From Caldilineaceae bacterium (GTDB lineage: Bacteria; Chloroflexota; Anaerolineae; Caldilineales; Caldilineaceae): a stretch of DNA of 32,837 bases. The notes under the pieces are model-generated. The model was given only the letters and a program-made list of their open reading frames with translations. It did not search any database and was not told the origin of the DNA. The number at the start of each line of letters is the position of its first letter. Within the stretch, counting starts at the first letter, position 1. Shown here piece after piece: positions 7,157-20,770 of this stretch. The translations under genes were made by a program, and so were the position numbers. The stretch spans positions 1 to 32,837 of the forward strand of contig JAHDWG010000023.1 in assembly GCA_023384495.1 (NCBI GenBank), given 5' to 3'.

Positions 7157-8332
7157 TCAATTGACCCCGGCCAGGTCTGGCTCTTTGTTGTCCATCTCGA
7201 CGAACTTGCCGGTGACGGTGTAGATGATTCGCTCGCAGATGTTGGTGGTGCGGTCTGCGGCGCGCTCCAGATTGTGCGCCGCCCATGAGAGATAATTGGC
7301 GTGGTCGATAAGCTTGGGGTTGGCGACGATGATGTCGATCAGCTCGCGATTGATCGTGTTGTAGAGCGCATCGACCTCGTCATCCTGGTTGGGGATTTGG
7401 CGCGCCTGCTCCACATCCTGCGCCACAAACGCATCGAGCGAAGCGCGCAACATACGGACGACAATGTCGCACATCTGGGGCATATGCACCAGCGGCTTGA
7501 CCAACGGCTCGCGCCCAATGTAGAGCGTAATACGCGCAATGCCCTTGGCGTAATCACCGATGCGCTCCAACTCGGAGGCGATCTCCAGGATGCCGGCAAT
7601 CAGACGCATGTCGCGCGCCATGGGCTGCTGCGTGGCGATCAGCGTCAGACACGCATCCTCAATGGCGTAGCGCTTCTGGTTGATCAGCCGATCATCGGCG
7701 ACCAACTGGCGCGCCTGGTCGAGATTCTGCGCCTTTAGGATTTCGATTGAACTGTGTAGCGCCTGACAAACCACACTGCCCATGAGCAATAGTTCGTCTT
7801 GTAGACGCCGCAATTCTTGCTGATAGTGCACTCGCATGGAACTCTCCGTCCCGGACGGGCGACCGGGCAGCGTGATGGATGATGGAGAAGCGCTGGCCTG
7901 ACCGGCAGGCGGAAACGCTTGTTGCAAATATAGTAACACACTTTTCCGAATTTTGTCACGCACGCGCCGAAAGACCTTGAGCTGCTCGTCGAGGCGACCG
8001 CTGGCCAGGGCCGGGTCTTCAAAGCCAATATGCACCTTTTTCCCCTTGCCCAACCAGACGGGACAATTCTCGGCGGCATCGTCACAGACGGTGATCACTA
8101 GGTCAAAGTCCTGGCCCACAAACTCCTCGGTGGACTTGGAGCGGTGGCGCGAGAGGTCGATCCCAAGTTCGGCCATCACCTCAATCGCCAGCAGATGCAC
8201 ATAGCCCGAAGGTTTGGTGCCCGCCGACTGGGCATGCCACTGGTCGCCGAGAAAGTGGTTGATCAGCCCCTCCGCCATTTGGCTACGACAGGAGTTGCCC
8301 GTACAGAGGATGAGAACGCGTCGTTTGGTCAT
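7157..8332 (-). CDS. arsC-phoU: Arsenate reductase-PhoU fusion protein
   Basis: This 391-residue protein joins two usually separate functions. Residues 1-140 are a thioredoxin-coupled arsenate reductase of the low-molecular-weight phosphatase fold. It has the P-loop CTGNSCR with C10 and R16, the redox pair C83 and C90, and acid D106 in EDPA, matching C10, C82, C89 and D105 of the staphylococcal enzyme. A linker rich in Pro, Ser and Gly (about 141-165) leads to PhoU (166-391), with both three-helix repeats and the acidic motifs ELERIGD and NLERAAD. PhoU restrains the Pst transporter and PhoR signalling when phosphate is ample. There is no stop codon between the domains. A Shine-Dalgarno (GGAGAG) sits 4 bases before an in-frame ATG at 7837 (M166), so free PhoU may also be made. 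It is the last gene of the pst operon, 6 bp after the aquaporin. Confidence 0.93.
   Translation of the reverse strand: MTKRRVLILCTGNSCRSQMAEGLINHFLGDQWHAQSAGTKPSGYVHLLAIEVMAELGIDLSRHRSKSTEEFVGQDFDLVITVCDDAAENCPVWLGKGKKVHIGFEDPALASGRLDEQLKVFRRVRDKIRKSVLLYLQQAFPPAGQASASPSSITLPGRPSGTESSMRVHYQQELRRLQDELLLMGSVVCQALHSSIEILKAQNLDQARQLVADDRLINQKRYAIEDACLTLIATQQPMARDMRLIAGILEIASELERIGDYAKGIARITLYIGREPLVKPLVHMPQMCDIVVRMLRASLDAFVAQDVEQARQIPNQDDEVDALYNTINRELIDIIVANPKLIDHANYLSWAAHNLERAADRTTNICERIIYTVTGKFVEMDNKEPDLAGVN
7835..7847 (-). promoter_or_regulatory. Internal ribosome binding site and ATG for PhoU alone
   Basis: Within arsC-phoU the minus strand reads GGAGAG (7847-7842), TTCC, then ATG (7837-7835), in frame with the fusion and exactly at the start of the PhoU domain. 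It suggests either a second translation product or the relic of two genes fused by loss of a stop codon. The 4-nt spacing is short but workable. Confidence 0.5.
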
Positions 8333-8338
8333 TGGGCT

Positions 8339-8989
8339 TCACTGCTCCTTTCGAGTCAGGCCAAATCCACCCACCGCCAGCGCAGCGCCGAGCAACGGCG
8401 CCACCATATAGAGCCACAGCGCCGCCAGATTGCCAGACACGAGCGCAGGCGCCAGTGAGCGCGCCGGGTTCATGGATGCGCCTGTAACTGGCCCGCCAAA
8501 GAGCGCATCGAGACAGACTGTGGCGCCGATGGCCAGCCCAGCGGTAATCCCGCGTTCTTTGGCGCCCGTCGCCACATGGATGATGACAAACATGAGAAAA
8601 AAGGTCAACACAATCTCCAACAAGAAGGCGGCCCAGATCGCCACAGATGGCGCCGGTATGGTGGCCCCAAGCGTAGCGTCGCCGGGGAATGCGCCCCGCA
8701 ATGTGAGGCTGGCAAGCAACGCGCCGGCCACCTGGCTACCTACATACGGCGCCACCTCTCGCAGAGGGAAGCGCCCCGCCAGCCAAAAGCCAAACGTGAC
8801 CGCGGGATTGAAATGCGCCCCTGAGGTTTCGCCAACTGCATAGATCATCACCATGACCACTAGCCCAAAGGTAAGCGCAATGCCTACGTGCGTCACCGCG
8901 CCCTCGCTGGCCGCATTGACGACAATCGCGCCAGTGCCGGCAAAGACCAGTGCAAAGGTCCCTACAAACTCCGCCCAATATCGATTCAT
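8339..8989 (-). CDS. Aquaporin (MIP family channel)
   Basis: This 216-residue inner-membrane channel has six hydrophobic segments and both pore motifs, HFNPAV (NPA at 61-63) and MNPARS (NPA at 174-176). Aligned by eye to E. coli AqpZ, the selectivity positions are F41, A162, A171 and R177. The His that narrows water-specific pores is Ala here, which suggests a wider pore that could pass small neutral solutes such as As(OH)3 or glycerol (inference). It lies between pstB and the arsC-phoU fusion. A comparable pairing of aquaporin and ArsC in Sinorhizobium meliloti (AqpS) exports arsenite produced by arsenate reduction. I chose the ATG at 8989, which gives the usual N-terminus MNRYWAEFVGT; an in-frame GTG at 8998 would add three residues. 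Neither has a strong ribosome site. Confidence 0.9.
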   Translation of the reverse strand: MNRYWAEFVGTFALVFAGTGAIVVNAASEGAVTHVGIALTFGLVVMVMIYAVGETSGAHFNPAVTFGFWLAGRFPLREVAPYVGSQVAGALLASLTLRGAFPGDATLGATIPAPSVAIWAAFLLEIVLTFFLMFVIIHVATGAKERGITAGLAIGATVCLDALFGGPVTGASMNPARSLAPALVSGNLAALWLYMVAPLLGAALAVGGFGLTRKEQ

Positions 8990-9085
8990 AACCACCACAA
9001 GCTCATTAGATGACAGATGGATGTCGGATCAAACCACCTGTGTTTGATGCAACCATTGTTGATGTGAAAGCAGCAACTGCGCCTC

Positions 9086-9901
9086 TTAACCAAAGCGGCC
9101 CGTTATATACTCTTCAGTCTTTTTGTGTTGCGGGTTGGTGAAGAGCTGCTTGGTGGAGCCGAATTCCAACAAGTGGCCGGTGCGATGTTCGTCGACCATA
9201 AAGAAGGCGGTATAATCTGAGACGCGCGCGGCCTGCTGCATGTTGTGCGTCACGATGATGATGGTGTAACGCTCGGCCAGTTCCTTCATCAGGTCCTCGA
9301 TCCGGAGTGTGGCGATGGGGTCTAGCGCCGAGCATGGCTCATCCATGAGGATGATGTCGGGGCGGGTGGCGATGGCGCGGGCAATGCAGAGCCGCTGCTG
9401 CTGGCCGCCGGAGAGGCTGTATGCGCTCTGGTTAAGCTTGTCCTTGACTTCATCCCACAGGGCGGCGGCGCGCAGCGATTGCTCGACCAGCTCGTCCATG
9501 TTGCCCCGAAAGCCGTTGACCCGCGCGCCCCAGGCAATATTCTCGTAGATCGACTTGGGGAAGGGGTTGGGCTTCTGAAAGACCATGCCGATCCGCCGTC
9601 GCACCTCAACTGGGTCAACCTGCGGGTCGTAAATGTTAAAATCTCGGAAACGCACCTCGCCACCCACGCGCGCCGATGACACCAGGTCGTTCATGCGGTT
9701 GAAACAGCGCAAGACGGTGCTTTTGCCACACCCCGACGGCCCGATCATCGCCGTGATCTTGTGCTCCTCAATGTTCATATTCACATCGCGCACGGCATGA
9801 AAGCCGCCGTAGTGGACGTTCAAATCAGCCGTTTCGATGATCATCTTGCCCAGATGAGTGGCTGACTCGGGTCGATCCGCCACAAATGTTGCAATTCCCA
9901 T
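9086..9901 (-). CDS. pstB: Phosphate ABC transporter ATPase PstB
   Basis: PstB is the cytoplasmic ATPase that powers phosphate import. All motifs are present: Walker [11 protein letters not shown]-loop VFQKPNPFP, signature [14 protein letters not shown], Walker [14 protein letters not shown] and switch His VTHNMQQA. The C-terminal EYITGRFG is typical of PstB. The ATG at 9901 (MGIATFVAD) has AAGGAG 11 bases upstream; the longer frame would begin with TTG at 9925 inside the pstA stop region. From the ATG the protein is 271 residues, about 20 longer at the N-terminus than E. coli PstB. It follows pstA with 20 bp between, so the two are almost certainly co-translated. Confidence 0.97.
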
Positions 9902-9921
9902 AGTAACAGACACTCCTTCAA

Positions 9922-12036
9922 TCAAAGCTGCTTGCTAAACCGGTTGCGCAGCAGGATGGCGCTGGCGTTTAGCGACAGCAACAGAACCAGCAACACTACA
10001 ATCGCCGCCGCCGCAATGTTGCGAAATTCGGGTTGGGGCCGCGAAGTCCACTGGTAGATCTGCACCGGCAAGGTGGTGAACTTCGAGAAAGGCCCGTTGG
10101 GGTCGAGCGCGACAAAGGTGGATGCGCCCACCACCACCAACGGCGCCGTCTCACCAATGGCGCGCGACATGGCGAGGATGTTGCCGGTGAGGATGCCGGG
10201 GATGGCGTTGGGCAACACGTGCGCCCAGATCACCTGCCAGCGCGTGGCGCCCAGCCCAAAACCCGCCTGGCGCAGCGAATCGGGCACGGCGCGGATCGCC
10301 TCGCGCGCATTGATGATGATCAGCGGCAGCACCAAGAGCGCGAGCGTCAGGCTGGCCGAGATGACTGTGCGCCCGTTGGCCGTGGTGGGGTCCACCGCGC
10401 CAAAGAGTTTGCCGCTGGTAAAAGGCTCAAAGGTGCGCACAAAGACGGCCAACCCCAACATGCCATAGATAATCGAAGGGACGCCGGCCAGGTTGTTGAT
10501 GTTGGTTTCGATAAAGCGGTTGACCCGGTTGTCCTCGGCATACTCCTCCAGATAGATGGCGGCGCCCACCCCCACTGGCAGCGCAAGGAGGAGTGTAAAG
10601 AGGATCACCCACAGCGTGCCCATAATGGCCGGGCGGATGCCTGCGCTCTCGGCCCTGGCGTCTTGGGGCGAGGTGAGAAAGCGCATCGAGACCCAACTGC
10701 GCCACGTAAGCTCGCCATTGGGGATCAGAGCAACGGCGGCCTCGATCTGCGGGCGGCGCAGCAATGAATCGGTAAGTGACCATGAGCGCACCGCCGTCGG
10801 CTGCACCACGCGCTCCAACACCAGCTCATAGAGATTCTCGCGCGTGCGCTCGGCAAAGGGCTGGTCATTTTCAAAACGGCGCATAAGCCCGCTGGAGACA
10901 TTGGCGGCCAAGACTTCGATCAGCGTTTCTTTGGGCAGTTCGCTCAGTTCGCGGGCGTAGACGCGCTCCACAAAGAAGTCGAGTGTGCCGCTGTCGCTGC
11001 CTGGGATATAGCGCACGATCGGCTCGTTGGGCCAGGCCGGGTTGACATCGGACCAGCGCTCCGCCGTCATAAAGACTTGACGAAGCGCATCGGCGCTCAG
11101 GTTGGTGACAAAGGTGTTCTCCCGGTGAACCACCACAGCCAGCGCGTCAAAACCCACCTCGAATTCCAGCGGCTCACGCTTGGCGCTGCGGCAGATCTCG
11201 ATTTCGGCGCGGGTGATGGCGCGGCTGGCATTGGCAATGTCCACCCCCGCGTCGTTGCAGAAACGGGCAATCCCCGCCTTGGTGCCGATGTTGTCGATCT
11301 GGACTGCGCCGGCAAAGCCGGCGGCCTGAAATTGATCGGCGGCCTGCTTCGTCAGCGGATAGACCGTGGAGCTGCCGGCAACGACAATGTCACCATCCAC
11401 AGCGCTTGGGTCTGCCAGGGGAATCACGGCGTTTTGCAGCGCGGCCTTGCCTTCGGCGATGTCGGCGTCGGTGGTCGGGAAATAGCCGACTTCGCCTGCA
11501 AGCGCTGGGGCATTGGTCAAGTAGTGATCGACAAATGCGGCGACTTGTGGCTTTTGTTGCAGAGTGGCCGCGGTCGAGTAGATATAGAGCGGGCGAGAAA
11601 GCGAGTATGAGCCGTCATCCAGTGTTGCCAAACTGGGCGTTACCCCATCCACTGCGACCAAATTGAGCTCGTCGGCGAGCGCTTGATAATAGGCATAACC
11701 GAAGAAGCCGACGGCATAAGGGTTTGCCATCACACCGGCGGCCAACTCGTTGTCGTCTTCGCTGGTGGTGATATTGAGCGCATCTAGCATATTTTGCTCT
11801 TCCACCGCCAGCACGATGGCGTCTGGGTCCACCTTGTTCTGCACAGCGACAAAGCCAAAGGCGCCATCAATAATGTTGTAAAGGAGCGCGATGAGGGCGA
11901 CGATCCCAACCAGGGTAGACGCAACAAAAACAGTATACCAAAACTGGCCACGTCGCTGACGCTCGCTGACTTGCCTCTTTGCCACTTCGCCTTCGGGATA
12001 GCCGGTCGCTTCTGGCCTGCGTGTCTCCATCGCCAT
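9922..12036 (-). CDS. pstA: PstA permease with an inserted, circularly permuted PstS domain
   Basis: This 704-residue protein compares with about 300 for classical PstA. Residues 34-60 are membrane segment 1. Residues about 470-697 carry the remaining segments and the ATPase-coupling EAA motif ([19 protein letters not shown], 578-596). Residues about 363-460 resemble the extra segment of Chloroflexota-type PstA. Between about 76 and 362 lies a whole phosphate-binding domain related to the neighbouring pstS, but in swapped order: the C-terminal half comes first (FFGYAYYQ at 111-118, KPQVAAF at 162-168, VGYFP at 183-187) and the N-terminal half second ([10 protein letters not shown] at 220-229, NASRAI at 269-274, PGSDSGT at 345-351). 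All phosphate-contact loops are intact. The domain should face the extracytoplasmic side as a tethered second receptor. The start overlaps the pstC stop by one base and has GAGGAG upstream. Permease identity is firm; receptor function of the insert is inferred. Confidence 0.95.
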
Positions 12037-13043
12037 TATTGATACTCCTCTCGGAAGCGGGCCACGAGAATCCGGCTTAGGATGTTGAGGCCAAAGGTGA
12101 TCACAAAGAGCACAAGCCCAATCGCAAAGATGCTGCTATAGTCGATGGTGTCATAACTCAAGTCGCCGCCACTGATGCGCACAATATGCCCGGTCATGGT
12201 CTCGGCGGCCACAAAGGGGTTGAGCGTGAAATTTGGCCCGGCGCCGGCGGCAATCGCCACCACCATCGTCTCGCCCACCGCGCGCGAGATGGCCACGATC
12301 ACCGCCGCCGAGATGCCAGAGAGCGCCGCCGGCAACACCACCCGCAGCGCCGTCTCTAGCCTCGTGCCGCCCAGCCCATAGGCCGCCTCGCGCAGCGACA
12401 TGGGCACCGCACGCAGGGCATCCTCGCTCATGGAGGTCACCAACGGCAAGATCAGAATCCCAATGACCAGTCCAGCCGATGCCGTGTTATAGATTTGCAC
12501 AGTCTCGTAGCCAAAAATTGTGCGCAGGAAAGGGGTCATAAAGGTCAGCGCAAAGTAGCCGTAGACAACCGTAGGGATGCCGGCCAGCACCTCAAGGATC
12601 GGCTTGAGCGCGCCGCGCACCCGAGCACTGGCATACTCGCTCAGATAGATGGCGATGGCCAATCCAACCGGCAGGGCAAAGAGCATGGCAATGAAACTAG
12701 TGACCAGGGTGGCCGTCACCAAGGACCAGATGCCAAACTGCCCGATCACCGGCTGCCAGCGCGTGGTCAAAAAGAATTCACCCAGGGTGACCTCGTCGCT
12801 CCCAAAAAAGAGCCACGATTCCCGACCCAGCACATAGATAATGCCAATCGTAGTCAACACCGAAACCGCGCCACACACAAACAGAAAACCTTGGATTAGC
12901 GCTTCGCCGATGCGGATTTTTTTGTGCAAACCCAGGTCCCCTGGTCCACCGATTGTCACGTGCGCCGCCGCTGGCTGGTCTGCCCGGCCTGGGGCGGCGC
13001 CGGCAGACGGCAGCGTGGCGGTTTCAGCTCGCAGATCACTCAC
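12036..13043 (-). CDS. pstC: Phosphate ABC transporter permease PstC
   Basis: This 335-residue inner-membrane subunit pairs with PstA to form the phosphate channel. A hydrophilic, Ala/Pro-rich N-terminus of about 40 residues precedes the first helix (about 48-72). A periplasmic loop follows, then the core helices with the EAA coupling motif ([19 protein letters not shown]). The GTG start at 13043 has AGGGAG 6 bases upstream. The stop codon overlaps the pstA start (TAATG), pointing to coupled translation. Unlike PstA, it carries no inserted domain. Confidence 0.96.
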
Positions 13044-13222: not shown

Positions 13223-14263
13223 TTACTCGCCGAGTGCGGCAACCCAGTTCGCCTTGGCCTCGTCCAGCGCCGCCGCCGGCGCCGGGAAGTAGCCGACCCC
13301 ACGAATCTCTTCGTTGACATAGGTCAGGTAAAAGTTGATGAAGGCGGCCACCTGCGGCTTGTCTTGCATGATCTGGGCGTCCGAATAGATGAAGATTGGG
13401 CGCGCCAGCGGATAGAGGCCAGCGTCTACGTTGTCAGTGGTGGCCTCGACATCATTCAGCGTGAGGATGTCCAGCCGGTCTGCATTCTCCTGGTAGTAGG
13501 CATAGCCAAAGTAGCCAATGGCGTTGACATCGCCTTCCACACCCTGCACCAGCACATTGTCATCTTCACTCAACTGCAGATTCGCCGCGCTCAGGTGCCG
13601 CTCTTCAGCCAGCTCTTTATAAGCCGGCGTCATCACCGCTTCGACAAAGTAGTCGAATGTACCGCTGTCGGTGCCGGGAATGAAGCGCAGGATCGGCGTG
13701 TCGGGCCAGCTTGGGTCCACATCAGACCAGTTCGTGGCTTCATCCGAGAAGATGACCGCCAGTTGCTCAAGAGTGACGCCCGCGTCAAGCCAATCATTGT
13801 TGGGGTTGACCACCACAGCTAATGCATCCGTGCCGATGCGGAACTCAATGGGTTCGCGACCAATGGCGCGGCAATTCTCGACCTCGCTGTCGCGAATCGC
13901 GCGGCTGGCGTTGGAAATATCCGATTCACCAGCCTTGCAGAAGCGCTCGAAGCCGGCGCCCGTGCCGATGCTGTCGATGGTGATGTTGCCGGCGTAGCCC
14001 TCGTCGCGAAAGCGGGCGGCCACGGCCTCGGTCAGCGGGAAGACGGTGGAGCTGCCGGCGGTGATGATGTCACCCGTCACCTCCAGCGGGTTGACTTCGG
14101 GCAGTTCGCTATCCACCATCGCGGCTGCTTCAGCGGCTGGGGCTTCGGCAGGGGGCGTTGTTGCCTGGGCGGCGGGGGCGGCGGGGGCGGCGGGCGCAGG
14201 GGCCGCACAGGCCGCTACCATCAGCCCGACGAGCACCAGCAACATCAGAGCATGACGACGCAT
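13223..14263 (-). CDS. pstS: Phosphate-binding lipoprotein PstS (SphX-like)
   Basis: This is the extracytoplasmic phosphate receptor of the Pst system, 346 residues. The N-terminus is a lipoprotein signal (MRRHALMLLVLVGLMVAAC, lipid Cys at 19). An Ala/Pro linker of about 35 residues follows, then the binding domain. Phosphate-loop motifs are AGSSTVFPLT, SNASRAI and PGTDSGT; the C-terminal half has [16 protein letters not shown] and VGYFP. The same motifs, in swapped order, occur inside PstA. I chose the ATG at 14263 because it has AGAGGAG upstream and begins the signal peptide; the open frame extends 53 residues further without such support. It is first in the pst operon, downstream of Pho-box-like repeats. 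Confidence 0.96.
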   Translation of the reverse strand: MRRHALMLLVLVGLMVAACAAPAPAAPAAPAAQATTPPAEAPAAEAAAMVDSELPEVNPLEVTGDIITAGSSTVFPLTEAVAARFRDEGYAGNITIDSIGTGAGFERFCKAGESDISNASRAIRDSEVENCRAIGREPIEFRIGTDALAVVVNPNNDWLDAGVTLEQLAVIFSDEATNWSDVDPSWPDTPILRFIPGTDSGTFDYFVEAVMTPAYKELAEERHLSAANLQLSEDDNVLVQGVEGDVNAIGYFGYAYYQENADRLDILTLNDVEATTDNVDAGLYPLARPIFIYSDAQIMQDKPQVAAFINFYLTYVNEEIRGVGYFPAPAAALDEAKANWVAALGE

Positions 14264-14417
14264 ACGAATTTCTCCTCTTTTTTCACTCATTTTGTTCATG
14301 TTGGACCATTGTTCCTGTTGGGCCGCCGATTCAACAGCGCAGTGTCGATGTCCGCATACATGCGCCGATTCGGCAATCAATGCCAGAATCAATGTCAGGT
14401 AACTGTGACGCATGAAA

Positions 14418-14439
14418 AGCATAAAGGGGTTCAGTTAAC
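14418..14439 (-). promoter_or_regulatory. Candidate pstS promoter: TTAAC unit plus -10
   Basis: Minus strand: TTAAC (14438-14434), a 10-bp spacer, then TATGCT (14423-14418; 4 of 6 to TATAAT). The 10-bp gap equals that between Pho box and -10 in classical Pho promoters. The leader to the pstS ATG would be about 150 nt. Confidence 0.35.
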
Positions 14440-14477
14440 ATTGCCGTCGCCCCGCTTTAACGACCCGTCAAGGAACT

Positions 14478-14519
14478 GTAAACATTTGGTTAAGACAGCA
14501 TCGTTAACCATTTGTTAAC
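14478..14519. promoter_or_regulatory. Pho-box-like direct repeats, divergent
   Basis: Read on the minus strand, TTAAC-like units begin at 14518, 14507, 14493 and 14482 (TTAAC, TTAAC, TTAAC, TTTAC): two pairs, each with 11-bp spacing, separated by 14 bp. PhoB-family regulators bind 11-bp direct repeats. The first two units lie in GTTAAC palindromes, so they can be read in either direction, which suits a shared divergent site. Confidence 0.6.
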
Positions 14520-14667
14520 ATATACCCTCGTTTCCATAACACTTGCAAGGCATCTCCTAACATCCCCTTTACCAAACCATAATCGTTGTCTTGTATGGTG
14601 GAAGAGTGACGCATTCGGGCCTGCCACCAGCCCAGGGCGCCGCGCAGTGTGGTCTCCGTGTTGCACA

Positions 14668-14697
14668 ACTTGACCTGTAGGAACTTGACGTGAAGGA
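14668..14697 (+). repeat. 15-bp tandem repeat carrying the ribosome site
   Basis: ACTTGACCTGTAGGA (14668-14682) is followed directly by ACTTGACGTGAAGGA (14683-14697), with two mismatches. The second copy supplies the AAGGA Shine-Dalgarno of the gene starting at 14706. Confidence 0.55.
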
Positions 14698-14705
14698 AGA
14701 GAAGA

Positions 14706-15320
14706 ATGGATATGGCCGCCGTACGTGGAGCGCAACCGTTGTACAAATTGCCAAAACAGATCGAGCGCGCCCTAAACGGCGCGCTCTTGCCAGGCCGGCG
14801 CATCCTCATTGAACAGGTCGCGGCGCAGCGCACACCGAAGCGCGTCTTGGTCATCGGCCAGTGGCGTGCGGCCGATCTCGATCATATGCGCGAGTCGTTT
14901 CCCCGCGCCCGGTTTACGCTGATCGCACCAACGGCTGAGCACGAGACGGCCGGCCACACATCCCCCACTGAAACCGACGCCACGCGCTGGCTGGCCGGCC
15001 CCTACAGCCAACCGGTGAAGACAACCCACCCCTTCGATGTCGCCTTCTTGGCCTATGGGCTTGGCCGCAGCCAAATGGATGTGGACGCCATCATTACCGC
15101 CCTTCAAACCGATCTACGCCCCGGTGGCCTTGTGGCGGTTGTCGATTTCCATGACGCGCCTTTGGCGCCCATGCAGGCATGGCTGCGTCGCTGTGCAATT
15201 GAAGCGAACGGCCACCTGCTGCCAACCCTAACCACCCACTTCAAGCGCAGCACCATTGCAGTCGAGGGTGCGCACGGCGGGCTGTGGCGCTATCTTCTGT
15301 TTCTCGGTGAAAACCGTTAA
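14706..15320 (+). CDS. Methyltransferase-like protein (class I fold), function uncertain
   Basis: This 204-residue soluble protein has a Rossmann-type pattern. A first strand ends VLVIGQW (near 47-53) where SAM methyltransferases have a GxGxG motif, a later strand reads FDVAFLAYGLGRS, and LRPGGLVAVVDFHD near 136-149 is the classic post-motif of UbiE/BtaB-like methyltransferases. The SAM glycine motif is degenerate and an acidic ribose ligand is not obvious, so it may not bind SAM normally. The C-terminal part loosely recalls lipid headgroup methyltransferases, but no BtaA partner is present. It is first in a rightward operon behind Pho-type repeats, followed 26 bp later by the PHP gene. AAGGAAGAG just upstream supports the ATG. 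Fold moderately sure; activity unknown. Confidence 0.65.
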   Translation: MDMAAVRGAQPLYKLPKQIERALNGALLPGRRILIEQVAAQRTPKRVLVIGQWRAADLDHMRESFPRARFTLIAPTAEHETAGHTSPTETDATRWLAGPYSQPVKTTHPFDVAFLAYGLGRSQMDVDAIITALQTDLRPGGLVAVVDFHDAPLAPMQAWLRRCAIEANGHLLPTLTTHFKRSTIAVEGAHGGLWRYLLFLGENR

Positions 15321-15346
15321 TCCAGACAACAGCGAGCAAGCCATTC

Positions 15347-16096
15347 ATGGGAAAAGCCGACCTGCACGTCCACACAATCTACAGCTACGATGGCACCGCC
15401 ACGGTGGCCGCCACGCTAGAATATGTGAAACGTCATACCGACCTGACCACCATTGCAATCACCGACCACGACACCATTGACGGCGCGCTCGAAGCCGTTG
15501 CGCTGGCGCCCCGATATGGCATTGAGGTCATCCCCGGCATTGAGGTCACCACCGCCGAGGGGCATCTGCTCGCCCTCTTCGTACAAGCACCCATCCCCGC
15601 CGGACGTTCGCTTATCGAAACGGTCCATCTTGTGGCCGAACAGGGCGGAATCGCCATCGCCGCCCACCCAGGCGGCCCGTGGCGGTGGTGTCTACGCGAA
15701 GCGAACATCGCGGCGGCGCTGGCAGACGCGCAGATAGCCCAAACGCTAGTAGGGCTTGAGGCGTACAACGCCAGCCTGCCCAACCTGGCCCTCAATCAGC
15801 ACGCCTGCGCCATGGGACAACGATTGCCACTGGCCATGGTCGGCGCCAGCGATGCCCATATGTTATGGATGATCGGGATGGCGGCTACCTGGTTTCCCGG
15901 TGAAGGCAGCCGTGATCTCCGCACAGCGCTCGCCCATCGCACAACCACCCTGAGCGTGTCGGCGCGGCCAGCGCACTTTCTTGCCAGTTATCTGAAACAC
16001 CAACTGCTGCGGATGATGGGTTTGGCGCAATGGGCGCCCTCTACACCTGGCGCGCCGATTGCACTCCGGCGGTTGGCCGCGGTGCACCAGCCCTGA
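15347..16096 (+). CDS. PHP-domain metal-dependent phosphoesterase
   Basis: This 249-residue protein has the PHP metal-site residues in order: HVH (H7, H9), TDHD (D40, H41, D42), E66, AAHPGG (H107) and GASDAH (D169, H171). PHP proteins hydrolyse phosphoester bonds using a trinuclear metal centre. Stand-alone members include histidinol-phosphate phosphatase, nucleoside bisphosphate phosphatases and enzymes acting on short nucleic acids. The order and length fit the YciV/TrpH-like group, though the substrate cannot be fixed. A basic tail of about 50 residues follows the domain. In a Pho-box-controlled operon it could salvage phosphate from an organic ester (inference). No strong ribosome site precedes the ATG. 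Confidence 0.85.
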   Translation: MGKADLHVHTIYSYDGTATVAATLEYVKRHTDLTTIAITDHDTIDGALEAVALAPRYGIEVIPGIEVTTAEGHLLALFVQAPIPAGRSLIETVHLVAEQGGIAIAAHPGGPWRWCLREANIAAALADAQIAQTLVGLEAYNASLPNLALNQHACAMGQRLPLAMVGASDAHMLWMIGMAATWFPGEGSRDLRTALAHRTTTLSVSARPAHFLASYLKHQLLRMMGLAQWAPSTPGAPIALRRLAAVHQP

Positions 16097-16217
16097 TCTT
16101 GGTCGCCGGTCAACACGACGCCCCCACCCTGGACTGCCAGAGAGGCAAAATCAGGGGGTTTATGCGTTTCACAAGTGGGCCGAGGAACGAAGGTCCAACA
16201 AGCGAAGGGAATGGGCA

Positions 16218-17462
16218 ATGGCGCAAACAGTGGATCGGCTCTATCGGATTGCCTTTTTTGTCGAGGGGATGCACGCCAGCGAGGTGGACACAAGCACCCG
16301 CCTTCAGGCCCAGGCCCTGCGTACTCTCGGCCATCAGGTGATCATCTTTAGCCCCTGGCAAGCAACTAGCACCCGTCTACAGCCGGCTGAAACGGTGCAG
16401 TTGGCGGCCATGAGCGTGAAGTTGAAATCACGCATTGACCTGAGCTATCCGCTCTCGTGGCAGTTGTTGCGTATTTTCAAAGCGCAACCCTTTGATCTGA
16501 TCCACATCCACACCTCAACATCGGTCAATCTGCTGGCGTGGCAGATGGCCACACTCTACAAATTGCCTATCGTCTACACCTATCACACACTGTCCAAAGA
16601 ATATCTCCACTATCTTGGCTTGTTTTCGGAGCAGATGACCACGCTCTTCACCCCAATGGTAGAGTTATATGATAAAATGATCTGCGACCGGGCGGCGCTT
16701 GTGATAACGCCATCAGCCAAGGCCGCCGCCTATCTTCGCAATCTAGGAATTCAACCCGAGATACGCACGGTGCCCAACGGTGTCGATGTGGCGCGCTTTC
16801 GTCCCGGACAGTCGACTTTGCTCCAGACCGAATTCGGTGTGCCGCGTGATGCTTTCGTCTTACTTTTTGTGGGCCGGCTCAATCAGGAAAAGCGCCCGCT
16901 GCTGGCCTATGAACTCTTTCGCCACGCGGCCCACGCCCACCCCCGTTTGCACCTGGTGATGGTGGGCGACGGCGCGCTGCGACCCGTATTGGCCCAGCGC
17001 GCCCACCATGACGGCCTTGCCCAGCGCGTCACCCTGACGGGAAAGGTAGACTACGCGCAGATGCCGGGCGTTTACAACGGCGCCCACCTATGGATCTCAA
17101 CCTCGCAGAGCGAGGTCCACCCGATGGCCGCGCTAGAGGCCGCAGCCTGTGGGCTGCCAGCGGTTGCCTTTGCCGACCCGGCGCTGACAGGGATCGTCGA
17201 GCACGGCGTCAGTGGGTGGCTGGTGACGGAGAATGAAGCGTTTTTGGATGGCATTGCGCAACTTCTCGATTCGCCCGAGCGTTATGCTATGATGCAGAAC
17301 GCTGCTATTGCGCAGGCCCAACGCTATCATATCGAGGCGAGCGCACGACGGATGGTCGACTGCTATCACGAGGTAATGGCTAGCAGGGCCGCGCGCATAC
17401 CTGAAAATCGCAAACCGCGCCACCGTGGGCGACTGGATCTGCTACGAGAGTTTCGTCGATAG
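16218..17462 (+). CDS. GT4 glycosyltransferase, diacylglycerol glucosyltransferase-like
   Basis: This 414-residue GT-B enzyme has an N-terminal acceptor domain with the region FDLIHIHTS, then VYTYHTLSKEYLHY, the pattern shared with bacterial 1,2-diacylglycerol 3-glucosyltransferases. The C-terminal donor domain begins at LLFVGRLNQEKRP, and EX7E is E299/E307 in SEVHPMAALE. Related enzymes move glucose from UDP-glucose to diacylglycerol on the inner leaflet, making glycolipids that replace phospholipids when phosphate is scarce. Other GT4 acceptors such as mannosyl or phosphoinositol lipids cannot be excluded. I chose the ATG at 16218 (MAQTVDRLYRIAFF) because GAAGGGA lies about 7 bases upstream; the frame extends 53 residues further without homology. 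A 121-bp gap separates it from the PHP gene; the PAP2-like gene follows 26 bp later. Confidence 0.85.
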   Translation: MAQTVDRLYRIAFFVEGMHASEVDTSTRLQAQALRTLGHQVIIFSPWQATSTRLQPAETVQLAAMSVKLKSRIDLSYPLSWQLLRIFKAQPFDLIHIHTSTSVNLLAWQMATLYKLPIVYTYHTLSKEYLHYLGLFSEQMTTLFTPMVELYDKMICDRAALVITPSAKAAAYLRNLGIQPEIRTVPNGVDVARFRPGQSTLLQTEFGVPRDAFVLLFVGRLNQEKRPLLAYELFRHAAHAHPRLHLVMVGDGALRPVLAQRAHHDGLAQRVTLTGKVDYAQMPGVYNGAHLWISTSQSEVHPMAALEAAACGLPAVAFADPALTGIVEHGVSGWLVTENEAFLDGIAQLLDSPERYAMMQNAAIAQAQRYHIEASARRMVDCYHEVMASRAARIPENRKPRHRGRLDLLREFRR

Positions 17463-17488
17463 AGAAATGTGAAGGAAAGGCAAACCCC

Positions 17489-18121
17489 ATGATGCAACCG
17501 GCGTCGGTATTCCGTACCGACCATGACGCCACCAACTCACCTACAACCCGAAGCCGCCGTGTGGCCTACTGGGTTTCACAGATTGCCAGCCCCCCCGTGT
17601 TGGGGGTGGCTGTGACCATGGTGGCGGCCGCGGCGCTGGCTACGCCAGCGGCGTGGCTATGGTCTGTCATCTATCTTGTGTTGGCGATCGGCGTGCCCTG
17701 CCTCTACATTGTCTGGCTTGTGTGGCGCGGCGAGCTGGCGGATGTACACCTACCCGTCCGCGAGCAGCGCATTCGCCCCATGCTCTGTGCGGTGGGCGCC
17801 GCCCTGGCCGCCTGGGTGGTGCTCAATCTGGCCGCGGCCCCGCGTTTGTTGCAATCCATTGCCGCCGTCAACAGCGTGCAATCTCTGCTCTTTGTCCTCA
17901 TCACGTTGCGCTGGAAGATCAGCCTGCACACAGCCACGTCGGCAAACCTGACCGTGCTGGGGCTGGGCCTGATGGGCAGCCCCGCGCTGCCGCTGGTGGC
18001 GCTGACGCCGCTGGTGGCGTGGGCGCGCATTCAACTGCAACGGCACACACTAGGGCAAACCTTTGCAGGGGCCACGCTGGGCGCGACGCTGGTCATTGCA
18101 GCATTGTGGTATGTTGCTTAA
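17489..18121 (+). CDS. PAP2-like membrane protein with degenerate active site
   Basis: This 210-residue integral membrane protein has about five or six hydrophobic segments. Its layout matches PAP2 lipid phosphatases: REQRIRP near 90-96 where the family has KX6RP, SLH near 146-148 where it has PSGH, and ARIQLQRHTLGQ near 183-194 where it has SRX5HX3D. The key His survives, but the final Asp is Gln and other residues differ, so catalysis may be weak or altered. An active enzyme would convert phosphatidic acid to diacylglycerol, the acceptor of the preceding glycosyltransferase, and release phosphate. AAGGAAAGG upstream supports the ATG; an ATG follows immediately. The stop codon lies inside the first Pho-box unit at 18118. 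Confidence 0.65.
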   Translation: MMQPASVFRTDHDATNSPTTRSRRVAYWVSQIASPPVLGVAVTMVAAAALATPAAWLWSVIYLVLAIGVPCLYIVWLVWRGELADVHLPVREQRIRPMLCAVGAALAAWVVLNLAAAPRLLQSIAAVNSVQSLLFVLITLRWKISLHTATSANLTVLGLGLMGSPALPLVALTPLVAWARIQLQRHTLGQTFAGATLGATLVIAALWYVA

Positions 18122-18171
18122 CATACTCTTAACTTGCCGTTGTGACTGCGTTAACAACAGCCAATTACACT
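18118..18171 (+). promoter_or_regulatory. Pho box of four 11-bp units with -10
   Basis: Units start at 18118, 18129, 18140 and 18151: TTAAC, TTAAC, TTGTG, TTAAC, each followed by 6 bp, exactly 11 bp apart. TACACT (18166-18171; 4 of 6 to TATAAT) begins after a 10-bp gap, the spacing of classical Pho promoters where PhoB replaces the -35. A start site near 18178 is predicted. The first unit overlaps the stop codon of the PAP2-like gene. Confidence 0.65.
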
Positions 18172-18177
18172 GTGGAT

Positions 18178-18300
18178 GGTTGCGCAGCATTCTGGGGAGC
18201 TGAACACTCGCAATCCATCCTCTTTTCCAATTACCTCGATCCCACCCTCCTTCACACAGGGGTGCGCCTTGTAGCCGGGCGCACCCCTGTGTATTTTTTG
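18178..18300 (+). ncRNA. Candidate phosphate-responsive small RNA
   Basis: A transcript from the Pho-box promoter would start near 18178 and end at the terminator near 18300, about 120 nt, with no open reading frame of note and no gene inside. It could also be a terminated leader that regulates phoB-phoR. Ends are inferred from promoter and terminator positions; no known RNA family is recognised. Confidence 0.35.
18254..18300 (+). terminator. Strong rho-independent terminator
   Basis: A 15-bp perfect stem (ACACAGGGGTGCGCC at 18254-18268 with its complement at 18278-18292) with a 9-nt loop is followed by ATTTTTTG. It ends the rightward operon and any transcript from the Pho box at 18118. Confidence 0.85.
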
Positions 18301-18533
18301 CACATGCGCGGGCTTGCTACACGGCGGTTGCCTTGAAAACACGCATGAGGGGCCGGCCAGGGCGGCAAAGCAACGCGCATTTTCGAGCAGAGCTGAGGAT
18401 GAATGCAGCCCGGCAGACTTGCGCGCTTGCCCCTTTGCGTGGATACTCACAGCGTGTGTGAAGGTTGCCCGGCGTCGTGGGTTGCTCTCGGTTTGACGTT
18501 GCCGGCAAACATTTTTTGATGCAGGGGGCGGTC

Positions 18534-19256
18534 GTGAATCCAAAAGTGTTGGTCGTTGAAGATGAGCCGGCGCTGGCTGATGCGCTGGAGTACAGCCTGT
18601 CGCGCCAGGGGTATGAAGTGAGCGTTGCCGGCGATGGGGTCAAGGCGCTGGAGATGGCTCGTCAGACGATCCCCGATCTGGTAGTGCTCGACATCATGCT
18701 GCCTCATCTGGATGGCTATGAGGTCTGCCGCATCCTACGCCAGGAGACAAACGCGCCGATTATCATGTTGACGGCGCGCGCCGATGAGGTTGACAAGGTG
18801 GTGGGTCTCGAAGTTGGCGCCGATGACTACCTGACCAAACCCTTTAGTATGCGCGAACTGATTGCCCGCGTCAAGGCGCTGCTGCGCCGCGTCCGTCTCG
18901 ACCGTGAAGAGATGGCGACGACCAGCACCCCCAATGGTCACCCCGATGTGCCCACCGAGCGTATGGTTTTTGGCGACCTGGTCATCGATCTGAGCCGTCG
19001 CGAGGTTTCATTTGGCGGGGGGGCGTTCCATCTCAAACCAAAAGAGTTCGACCTTCTGGTCTTTCTGGCGCGCAACCGGGGCATCGTGCTCAGCCGAGAC
19101 CTGATCCTCGAACGGGTGTGGGGCTGGGACTACGACGGCGGCAGCCGCACGGTGGATGTTCACGTGCGCTGGCTGCGCGAAAAGATCGAAGCGGACCCCG
19201 CCAACCCCACACGCCTGGTCACTGTCCGCGGGATCGGATACCGGTTTGAGGGGTGA
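18534..19256 (+). CDS. phoB: PhoB-type response regulator (OmpR family)
   Basis: This 240-residue transcription factor has a receiver domain (about 4-120: E9, D10, phosphoacceptor D53, T80, K102) and a winged-helix DNA-binding domain (about 140-238), with the recognition region ending [15 protein letters not shown] and RGIGYRFEG at the C-terminus. This is the PhoB/RegX3 arrangement. Phosphorylated by the kinase encoded next door, it should bind the 11-bp TTAAC repeats here and at 14478-14519. I chose the GTG at 18534 because AGGGGG lies 5 bases upstream; an in-frame ATG at 18519 lacks a ribosome site. The phosphate role is inferred from the pst operon, the Pho-type repeats and the PhoR-like partner; the family itself is certain. 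Confidence 0.88.
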
Positions 19257-19369: not shown

Positions 19370-20770
19370 ATGCTTCACTCACCGCGCCTGCGGTGGCGCA
19401 CCGCATTCTCCTATGCCGTCGTCATTGCCCTGATCCTCACGGGGTTGACCTATTATCTCTCTGCGCGGTTTGACATTCCGCCAGGGCAAGCTGCGCGCCC
19501 TGTGGCAGTGGCCGGCCTGTTGATTTCTGGGTTGATGGTCTTCCAGGCCGAGCGTGCGGCGGCCACCGTGCGCCGGCTTACGCTAGTGGCGCATCGCATT
19601 GCCCAAGGCGACCTGGATGCGCGCATCATTTCGTTGAGCAGCGGCGAGATCGGCCAGCTTGCCCGTGCGTTCAACCGTATGGCCGACCGGCTGCAAAAAC
19701 AGATCGAGAAGCGCAACCGCGAGCGAGACCGGCTGGACACGGTGCTCCACGCGCTGAACGATGGCGTGCTGATCATCAACCGCCATGGCGAGGTTCGGCT
19801 GATCAACAGTGCGGCCGAACGCATCCTCCAGGTGACAGCCACCGTCGCACGCGACCGCACCTTTATCCAGGCGGTGCGCGACCACCGCATCGTCGAGGTT
19901 TTTCAGCGTTGCCTGCAGAGCGGGCATGAAGAGAACGCCATGTTGGAGCTTGAGGGCGGACGGATGCTGCGCGTGGCGGCGACGCCCTTTCTCCGTGGGC
20001 GGCAGCGCGGGCATGTTGTCATCCTACAAGATTTGACGCAGCTCTACCAGTTGCAGACTGTGCGCCGCGATTTCATCAGCAACATCTCTCACGAATTACG
20101 CACACCCGTCGCCTCGCTGCGCGCCCTGGTCGATACCCTGGCCGACGGCGCGATCGATGACCCGCCCGCCGCCCAACGCTTCCTTTCTCGTATGGATGTA
20201 GAAGTGGAGGCCATGGCGCAAATGGTGCAAGAGCTATTGGAGTTGGCGCACATTGAGTCAGGCCAAACACCGCTGCGGCTACGCGAGTTGCCCGCCACCG
20301 AGGTCGTTGGCCCAGGCGCTGAACGGCTTCGCCCCCAGGCCGAACGGGCGGCCATTTCATTGACCATCGACTCACCGGAAAAGCTGCCTTCGATTGTGGT
20401 AGACCCGGATCGCATCCAACAGGTCATGGCCAATCTCGTGCAAAACGCGATCAAGTTCACCCCTGCCGGGGGCGCTATCCACGTCCAGGTAGAGCATCAC
20501 CCTGACCGAGGCGAATTGGTGGTTGCCGTGTGCGACACAGGCGCGGGCATTGCGCCCGATGATCTCTCGCGAATCTTTGAGCGCTTCTACAAGGCCGACC
20601 GCGCCCGCTCGGGGGAAGGCGCCGGCCTGGGATTGGCGATTGCCAAACACATTGTGCAGGCGCACGGTGGGCGGATCTGGGCCGAGAGCACTTATGGCAA
20701 AGGCAGCAACTTCTATTTCACCCTCCCCACCACGTCTCCGGCAGAGGTCCCCATCGCCCCCGCCGTATGA
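19370..20770 (+). CDS. phoR: PhoR-type sensor histidine kinase
   Basis: This 466-residue inner-membrane kinase has two hydrophobic segments (about 12-31 and 44-58) with almost no extracytoplasmic loop. HAMP (about 60-113) and PAS (about 122-225) follow, then the phosphotransfer domain with H241 in SHELRTPVASL and an intact ATPase domain (NLVQNAIKFTP, CDTGAGI, GAGLGLAIAK). The short loop, PAS domain and lack of an external sensor fit PhoR, which reads phosphate status through contact with Pst and PhoU rather than a ligand. The partner regulator ends 113 bp upstream. The ATG has no clear Shine-Dalgarno. Phosphate function is inferred from context. Confidence 0.87.
   Translation: MLHSPRLRWRTAFSYAVVIALILTGLTYYLSARFDIPPGQAARPVAVAGLLISGLMVFQAERAAATVRRLTLVAHRIAQGDLDARIISLSSGEIGQLARAFNRMADRLQKQIEKRNRERDRLDTVLHALNDGVLIINRHGEVRLINSAAERILQVTATVARDRTFIQAVRDHRIVEVFQRCLQSGHEENAMLELEGGRMLRVAATPFLRGRQRGHVVILQDLTQLYQLQTVRRDFISNISHELRTPVASLRALVDTLADGAIDDPPAAQRFLSRMDVEVEAMAQMVQELLELAHIESGQTPLRLRELPATEVVGPGAERLRPQAERAAISLTIDSPEKLPSIVVDPDRIQQVMANLVQNAIKFTPAGGAIHVQVEHHPDRGELVVAVCDTGAGIAPDDLSRIFERFYKADRARSGEGAGLGLAIAKHIVQAHGGRIWAESTYGKGSNFYFTLPTTSPAEVPIAPAV

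Follow-up and report, generated by a model that had tools for sequence, protein, structure and literature searches.

What does a run of four co-directional genes do between the phosphate transporter genes and the phosphate regulatory genes of a Caldilineaceae bacterium (Chloroflexota)? The DNA stretch analyzed here, referred to as the window (32,837 nucleotides; contig JAHDWG010000023.1 of GenBank assembly GCA_023384495.1), carries at positions 14706–18121 of the plus strand the genes MT (a relative of BtaB methyltransferases), PHP (a PHP-domain phosphoesterase), GT4 (a family 4 glycosyltransferase) and PAP2L (a membrane protein with a predicted PAP2 fold). They are separated by gaps of 26, 121 and 26 bp and flanked by the divergent, minus-strand pstS-C-A-B genes on one side and by plus-strand phoB-phoR on the other (Table 1). 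Sequence comparisons suggest, with a probability of about 0.55, that MT-PHP-GT4-PAP2L is a PlcP-free, PhoB-controlled glycolipid-replacement operon. Most known cases of phosphate-driven lipid replacement come from proteobacteria, cyanobacteria and eukaryotes, and no paper describing it in Chloroflexota was found in open-licence PubMed Central (PMC) text.

Predicted phosphate control and proposed pathway

A scan of the window for four-unit TTAAC arrays with a period of 11 bp (at most 5 mismatches) returned five hits on both strands, confined to positions 14435–14493 and 18118–18154, compared with a mean of 0.01 and a maximum of 1 in 100 mononucleotide shuffles. The exact pair TTAACN6TTAAC is present at 14504 and 18118. 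The pstS promoters of related genomes share this repeat: in 38 regions upstream of pstS, phoB or MT (35 from relatives and three from the window), TTAAC-like pairs numbered 33 at a spacing of 11 and 31 at a spacing of 22, against 0–9 at the other spacings from 6 to 30. The phoB genes of most relatives are without such a chain. Since the same 11-bp periodicity occurs at the relatives' pstS genes, the arrays are read as the putative Pho boxes of this lineage. The initial annotation had placed the four genes between two Pho boxes, which was confirmed by the restriction of multi-unit arrays to both flanks of the operon; Pho control, also proposed there, is supported by the match of these predicted boxes to those of pstS and by the location between pst and phoBR.

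Across the genome the exact pair shows no enrichment (7 matches, compared to 11 for a reversed-pattern control) and therefore cannot define the Pho regulon; its use for listing the regulon of this genome was abandoned. No match was obtained when three full TTAACA units were required. Neither known RNA families of the Rfam type (positions 14000–18700) nor sigma-70-like promoters (14100–18700) were detected around the operon. Because the second array faces a strong terminator-like hairpin before the phoB start, a PhoB-activated transcript of approximately 120 nt could stop there, possibly representing a small RNA or leader, for which there was no Rfam match.

In the proposed pathway, PhoB would bind the 11-bp TTAAC arrays at low phosphate and turn on the four genes along with pst. 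We infer that PAP2L, a candidate membrane phosphatase, would convert phosphatidic acid or a similar lipid phosphate to diacylglycerol, to which GT4 may add a sugar (a substrate suggested by its clade and motifs), yielding a phosphorus-free glycolipid. PHP, as a cytosolic metal phosphoesterase, could recover phosphate from leftovers of the lipid swap or from a lipid phosphate head group. MT, apparently descended from a BtaB-like betaine-lipid enzyme, might assist by binding lipid without catalysis, or might be a relic in decay.

The four proteins and their relatives

GT4 scores above the cut-off for Pfam Glycos_transf_1 (111.8 bits). Among 37 NCBIfam families the best for this protein is the alpha-monoglucosyldiacylglycerol synthase Mgs (NF049988; 117.1 bits), also the top family of its ortholog in the relative G016; the window GT4 further resembles Mgs in its GT4 domains, in the E-x7-E motif (E299-x7-E307) and in the TYHT-type motif of the acceptor loop, present as TYHTLSKEYLHY. 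In a tree of 26 GT4 sequences it joins Mgs-like sequences of three other genomes (support 99/99), apart from the cysS-linked sequences (including a copy from the window's own genome) and from two groups that we named SqdX-like and PimA-like; the scanned SqdX-like members score best against the N-acetylglucosamine-phosphatidylglycerol synthase of NCBIfam. Apart from those of phosphatidylinositol operons, the GT4s in this tree that adjoin PHP or PAP2L elsewhere all belong to one SqdX-like group (100/100; 9 rows), and in the window the PHP and PAP2L families accompany a GT4 of another branch. As a separate observation, a recurrent set of genes surrounds SqdX-like GT4s at five loci in Roseiflexus, Anaerolineae and the window's family, consisting of PHP or PAP2L plus a GT2-like gene and sometimes a DedA-like gene.

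The initial annotation of PAP2L as a PAP2-like membrane protein is upheld by its structure model (predicted local distance difference test score, pLDDT, 87.8), from which a PAP2 fold is predicted. When the model was aligned with VIA-align, the 17 best rows were all PAP2-superfamily proteins according to their titles (Z 12.2 to 7.5); the top matches (Z 12.2–10.4) were G6PC1 (12.2), Bacillus subtilis phosphatidylglycerophosphate (PGP) phosphatase, PgpB (10.7), inositol-phosphorylceramide synthase and LpxE (10.5). As Z values below about 13 need caution in helical proteins, the uniform composition of the 17 best rows is the stronger point. Foldseek alone gave weak matches (best E 0.26). A homolog in the relative G013 passes the Pfam PAP2 model at 33.5 bits. 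Of what we take to be the PAP2 catalytic signature (Arg, S-x-H and R-x5-H-x3-D), R91, R94, S145-x-H147 and R180-x5-H186 are invariant in eight of eight sequences.

PAP2L homologs lie close to pst or phoU in five of the 14 relatives with a match, and in another genome one adjoins PHP. Location beside a co-directional lipid-type GT4 was found in one genome and in five of 20 further loci, hand-picked among the strongest of the matches, which came from 124 of 400 genomes; all five belong to a single family (f4). At two loci from two families, PAP2L forms the C-terminal half of a long single open reading frame, ORF (L113, 8864–10354; L114, 8466–9905), the N-terminal half of which reads like an EamA-type transporter. 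Here and below, genes in other genomes are mechanical ORFs supported by a codon model, and the names surE, ppx, ppk, CHAD, EamA, DedA, INO1 and acyltransferase were assigned by reading translations by eye, without family search.

The earlier identification of PHP as a PHP phosphoesterase is well founded: both Pfam PHP (44 bits; cut-off 26.4) and PHP_C (41.9 bits) exceed their cut-offs, and the metal ligands H7, H9, D15, H41, E66, D169 and H171 are present in 12 of 12 aligned sequences, with H107 nearly invariant. The gene neighborhoods of PHP were taken from a close-clade scan of named genomes, in which the best 79 loci were retained and the label pst-pho was given where the stretch contained PstS, or PhoB above 290 bits. 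Nineteen of these loci are pst-pho clusters, eight are phosphatidylinositol operons, six place PHP beside a co-directional GT4, and 46 show none of these arrangements. The pst-linked sequences fall mostly into one clade of the PHP tree (22 rows, 18 pst-linked; support 99). The window PHP pairs with that of the relative G010 (98) and then with L198 (84), which itself adjoins a GT4, and the sister of this group is a larger one that contains the pst clade. Since the window PHP groups outside the pst clade, its pst link appears to have arisen separately, which would be a point in favor of function, albeit one based on few events.

Upstream of the PHP genes of the pst clade, a TTAAC pair with 11-bp spacing occurs in 17 of 21 regions (one of the 22 was too short and was dropped), compared to 6 of 21 for a spacing of 10; shuffled sequences gave a mean of 0.87 and a maximum of 4. 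The corresponding counts in the other 57 loci were 10 and 7 (shuffles: mean 1.22, maximum 6). Some of the boxes upstream of PHP may serve a divergent neighboring gene instead.

MT matches Pfam Methyltransf_23 only weakly (17.5 bits; cut-off 27). Its closest homolog (35%), which is also the sole match in 60 relatives, is located in G010 directly downstream of a gene for a BtaA-type DUF3419 protein (349 bits), and replicons of Sinorhizobium, Rhizobium and Shinella show btaA and the methyltransferase gene in this order too. MT scores 55.8 bits against a profile of six BtaB-like proteins including that of G010, and 19.2 bits against the five rhizobial ones alone. It carries VLVIGQWRAADL where all six show LE[VI]GCGTG[RN]N; both this Gly-rich S-adenosylmethionine (SAM) motif and the acidic residue after strand 2 are kept in all six proteins and in neither case in MT. 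The structure model of MT is poor (pLDDT 56.4) and adds nothing on the SAM site. Thus, of the original designation "methyltransferase-like", the relationship to BtaB methyltransferases holds, but since the SAM motif is lost MT probably methylates nothing, and an active methyltransferase was rejected. No BtaA (PF11899/DUF3419) was matched in the window's own genome, a metagenome-assembled genome (MAG) that is 95% complete; no relatives of MT were found in 399 other genomes of the phylum at E ≤ 1e-22, and there were no matches in viral contigs or plasmids. The btaA-btaB pair of G010 (L108, 9360–11194), a MAG of the window's family, encodes a BtaB with an intact SAM motif and has no upstream TTAAC pair.

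Comparison with known systems and alternative readings

According to passages of PMC4796936, PMC3972451 and PMC9239053, PlcP releases diacylglycerol under the control of PhoB, and this is glycosylated by Agt or converted by BtaA/BtaB; in passages of the first two, btaA/btaB is counted among the lipid modules that are linked to plcP and controlled by Pho. If the glycolipid-replacement reading holds, the window operon would be a functional parallel of the proteobacterial plcP-agt and plcP-btaA-btaB operons. It resembles plcP-agt, as described for alphaproteobacteria, SAR11, Pseudomonas and methanotrophs (PMC4796936, PMC9239053), in Pho-box control (here predicted) and in combining a glycosyltransferase with a lipid-side hydrolase, but has PHP and PAP2L instead of the metallophosphoesterase PlcP, an Mgs-like GT4 and a Chloroflexota host; a mark of the PlcP-Agt type is a lipid glycosyltransferase making MGDG/GADG, and the window GT4 is Mgs-like by clade. 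No Pfam Metallophos match was found in the four proteins, a search that did not extend to PlcP in the rest of the genome. As PlcP is missing from the operon, the operon is not of the PlcP-Agt type, and the difference from that pair asserted in the initial annotation is borne out. The likeness to the plcP-btaA-btaB cluster (type 1 in PMC4796936; sinorhizobial btaAB in PMC3972451) consists in the first gene, a BtaB relative whose closest homolog belongs to a btaA-btaB pair; the differences are the lost SAM motif and the lack of a detected btaA in the same genome.

A third comparison concerns the Chloroflexota phosphatidylinositol operon (INO1-acyltransferase-acyltransferase-PHP-GT4-PIP synthase, where PIP is phosphatidylinositol phosphate), in which PHP is likewise followed directly by a lipid GT4. 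The window GT4 belongs to another branch, INO1 and PIP synthase are lacking beside it, and the pst-pho link is absent from the phosphatidylinositol operon. PHP was observed in such inositol-lipid operons, whole or in part, at ten loci, and is there a candidate enzyme for dephosphorylating phosphatidylinositol phosphate.

The helper enzymes of the window operon would differ from those of the known route, with PHP and PAP2L where PlcP would stand. A passage of PMC3972451 ascribes the recovery of phosphate after PlcP-type cleavage to "yet unknown phosphatases"; the PHP family is a concrete candidate for these, as well as for the phosphatase step after phosphatidylinositol-phosphate synthase. Searches of open-licence PMC text found no paper on a PHP domain tied to phosphoesterase, lipid and Pho regulon, on a PHP domain as phosphatidylinositol phosphate phosphatase, or on BtaB together with betaine lipid in Chloroflexi. 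A wider reading is offered tentatively: Chloroflexota might possess PlcP-independent lipid remodeling in which PHP phosphoesterases and phosphatases of the PAP2 fold team up with lipid GT4s and substitute for phospholipase C, PHP being a lineage-wide Pho-regulon phosphatase of lipid-derived phosphates (including the phosphatidylinositol-phosphate phosphatase of the inositol-lipid operons) and MT a lipid-binding subunit repurposed from BtaB and free of SAM.

The glycolipid-replacement reading draws support from the PHP and PAP2L families, each of which neighbors lipid-type GT4s in other Chloroflexota, and from the lone MT relative, which adjoins BtaA. Several observations weigh against it. The initial annotation had suggested checking the co-occurrence of the four genes across Chloroflexota; a search of 60 relatives did not find the complete set in any of them, and it was seen in only one MAG (7.6 Mb, 764 contigs, 95.48% complete, 8.23% contamination). 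A conserved four-gene operon was rejected, the members being scattered across these relatives and the window's own genome. MT looks inactive. PAP2L matches Pfam PAP2 weakly (17.7 bits; cut-off 27.2), and eight of eight sequences have Gln190 where the presumed signature has Asp, a position at which G6PC1 presumably also carries Gln. GT4 is far below the curated Mgs cut-off of 400 bits and has Glu in column 22, a position occupied by Gly in all 11 other aligned GT4s; its G016 ortholog lies 14 kb from pstS with no upstream box. The second Pho-box array points towards the terminator upstream of phoB. To these are added three findings on PHP and GT4 that bear on the best-surviving alternative.

This alternative, which we regard as possible but unlikely, is a Pho-regulated phosphate-scavenging and sugar operon with no lipid swap, in which PHP would act on nucleotides or sugar phosphates, GT4 would produce a soluble glycoside or compatible solute, and PAP2L would be a general membrane phosphatase. 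The solved relatives of PHP identified by profile include a 5'-3' exoribonuclease, a nucleic-acid enzyme, and another that we take to be a 3',5'-nucleotide phosphatase; at several pst-linked loci PHP has as neighbors surE and divergent ppx, CHAD and ppk. GT4 scores almost as high against MshA, a non-lipid enzyme (110.8 bits), as against Mgs. The HTYHT-like signature stressed in the initial annotation is indeed present, in a protein of an Mgs-like clade, but is not lipid-specific, because the PDB protein Tll1590 (6kih), which we take to be a sucrose-phosphate synthase, has TYHSL at the same position; the motif was rejected as proof of a lipid acceptor. The association of PHP and of PAP2L with lipid-type GT4s elsewhere, the Mgs-like clade of GT4 and the descent of the first gene from a betaine-lipid enzyme argue for glycolipid replacement instead.

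It is improbable that the operon serves a teichuronic-acid-style swap of a phosphate-rich envelope polymer, with GT4 building a sugar chain on polyprenyl phosphate and PAP2L recycling polyprenyl diphosphate: the fold matches of PAP2L do include PgpB, described as a C55-PP phosphatase, and GT4 has a distant match to TuaC (53.9 bits), but this is far under the cut-off of 550, the top GT4 matches are lipid and thiol-pathway enzymes, and the operon is without other polymer genes. The chances are slim, finally, that the operon is a decaying, horizontally assembled cassette that no longer works and persists through its place between pst and phoBR, as could be argued from the lost SAM motif, the Gly-to-Glu change of GT4, a full set seen in no other genome and the lack of MT relatives in 399 other genomes of the phylum at E ≤ 1e-22, since the four frames are full-length with normal codon usage, the PHP metal site is intact and so are the boxes on both sides.

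Genomic setting of the operon

The features identified in this part of the window are summarized in Table 1. The codon usage of MT, PHP, GT4 and PAP2L matches that of the other window genes, and their other two frames score far lower; the training set comprised 11 window genes, including PHP and GT4 but neither MT nor PAP2L. The best matches among the relatives were 62% for PHP (G010), 47% for GT4 (G016), 48% for PAP2L (G006 and G013) and 35% for MT (G010 only).

Table 1. Features of the pst-phoBR region of the window.
Feature	Position	Strand	Basis or remark
pstB (9086–9925), pstA (9922–12036), pstC (12036–13043)	9086–13043	-	Homology to pst clusters of relatives
PstS	13223–14263	-	Pfam, NCBIfam; lipoprotein start near 14263, mechanical ORF to 14422
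Pho-box region between pstS and MT	14435–14519	.	11-bp TTAAC units at 14435, 14457, 14468, 14479 and 14490; best read on the minus strand, towards pstS
Perfect TTAAC pair (within Pho-box region)	14504/14515		
MT, BtaB-like methyltransferase relative, SAM motif lost (204 aa)	14706–15320	+	Profile comparison, codon usage
PHP, metal-dependent phosphoesterase with PHP_C (249 aa)	15347–16096	+	Pfam, conserved ligands
GT4, glycosyltransferase of Mgs-like clade (414 aa)	16218–17462	+	Pfam, NCBIfam, tree; start set at 16218, mechanical ORF from TTG 16059
PAP2L, membrane protein with predicted PAP2 fold (210 aa)	17489–18121	+	Weak Pfam match, structure model
Second Pho-box array	18118–18156	+	Units at 18118, 18129, 18140 and 18151; overlaps PAP2L stop codon
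Intrinsic-terminator-like hairpin, strong	18254–18292	+	16 pairs followed by T run
PhoB-type response regulator	18519–19256	+	Pfam, NCBIfam; start ATG 18519 or GTG 18534
PhoR/PnpS-type histidine kinase	19370–20770	+	Pfam, NCBIfam

Loci of the relatives were read gene by gene. Their usual order is phoB-phoR-pstS-C-A-B with phoU nearby, and none of the 16 pst or pst-edge loci has MT, PHP or GT4 between pst and phoBR. In the window, pst and phoBR are separated and divergent, with the MT-PHP-GT4-PAP2L operon in between. Where the pst operon ends (7157–8332 and 8339–8998), one ORF resembles ArsC-like as well as PhoU genes of relatives and may represent a fusion. It is adjoined by an aquaporin-type gene, an arrangement that looks like linked arsenate handling.

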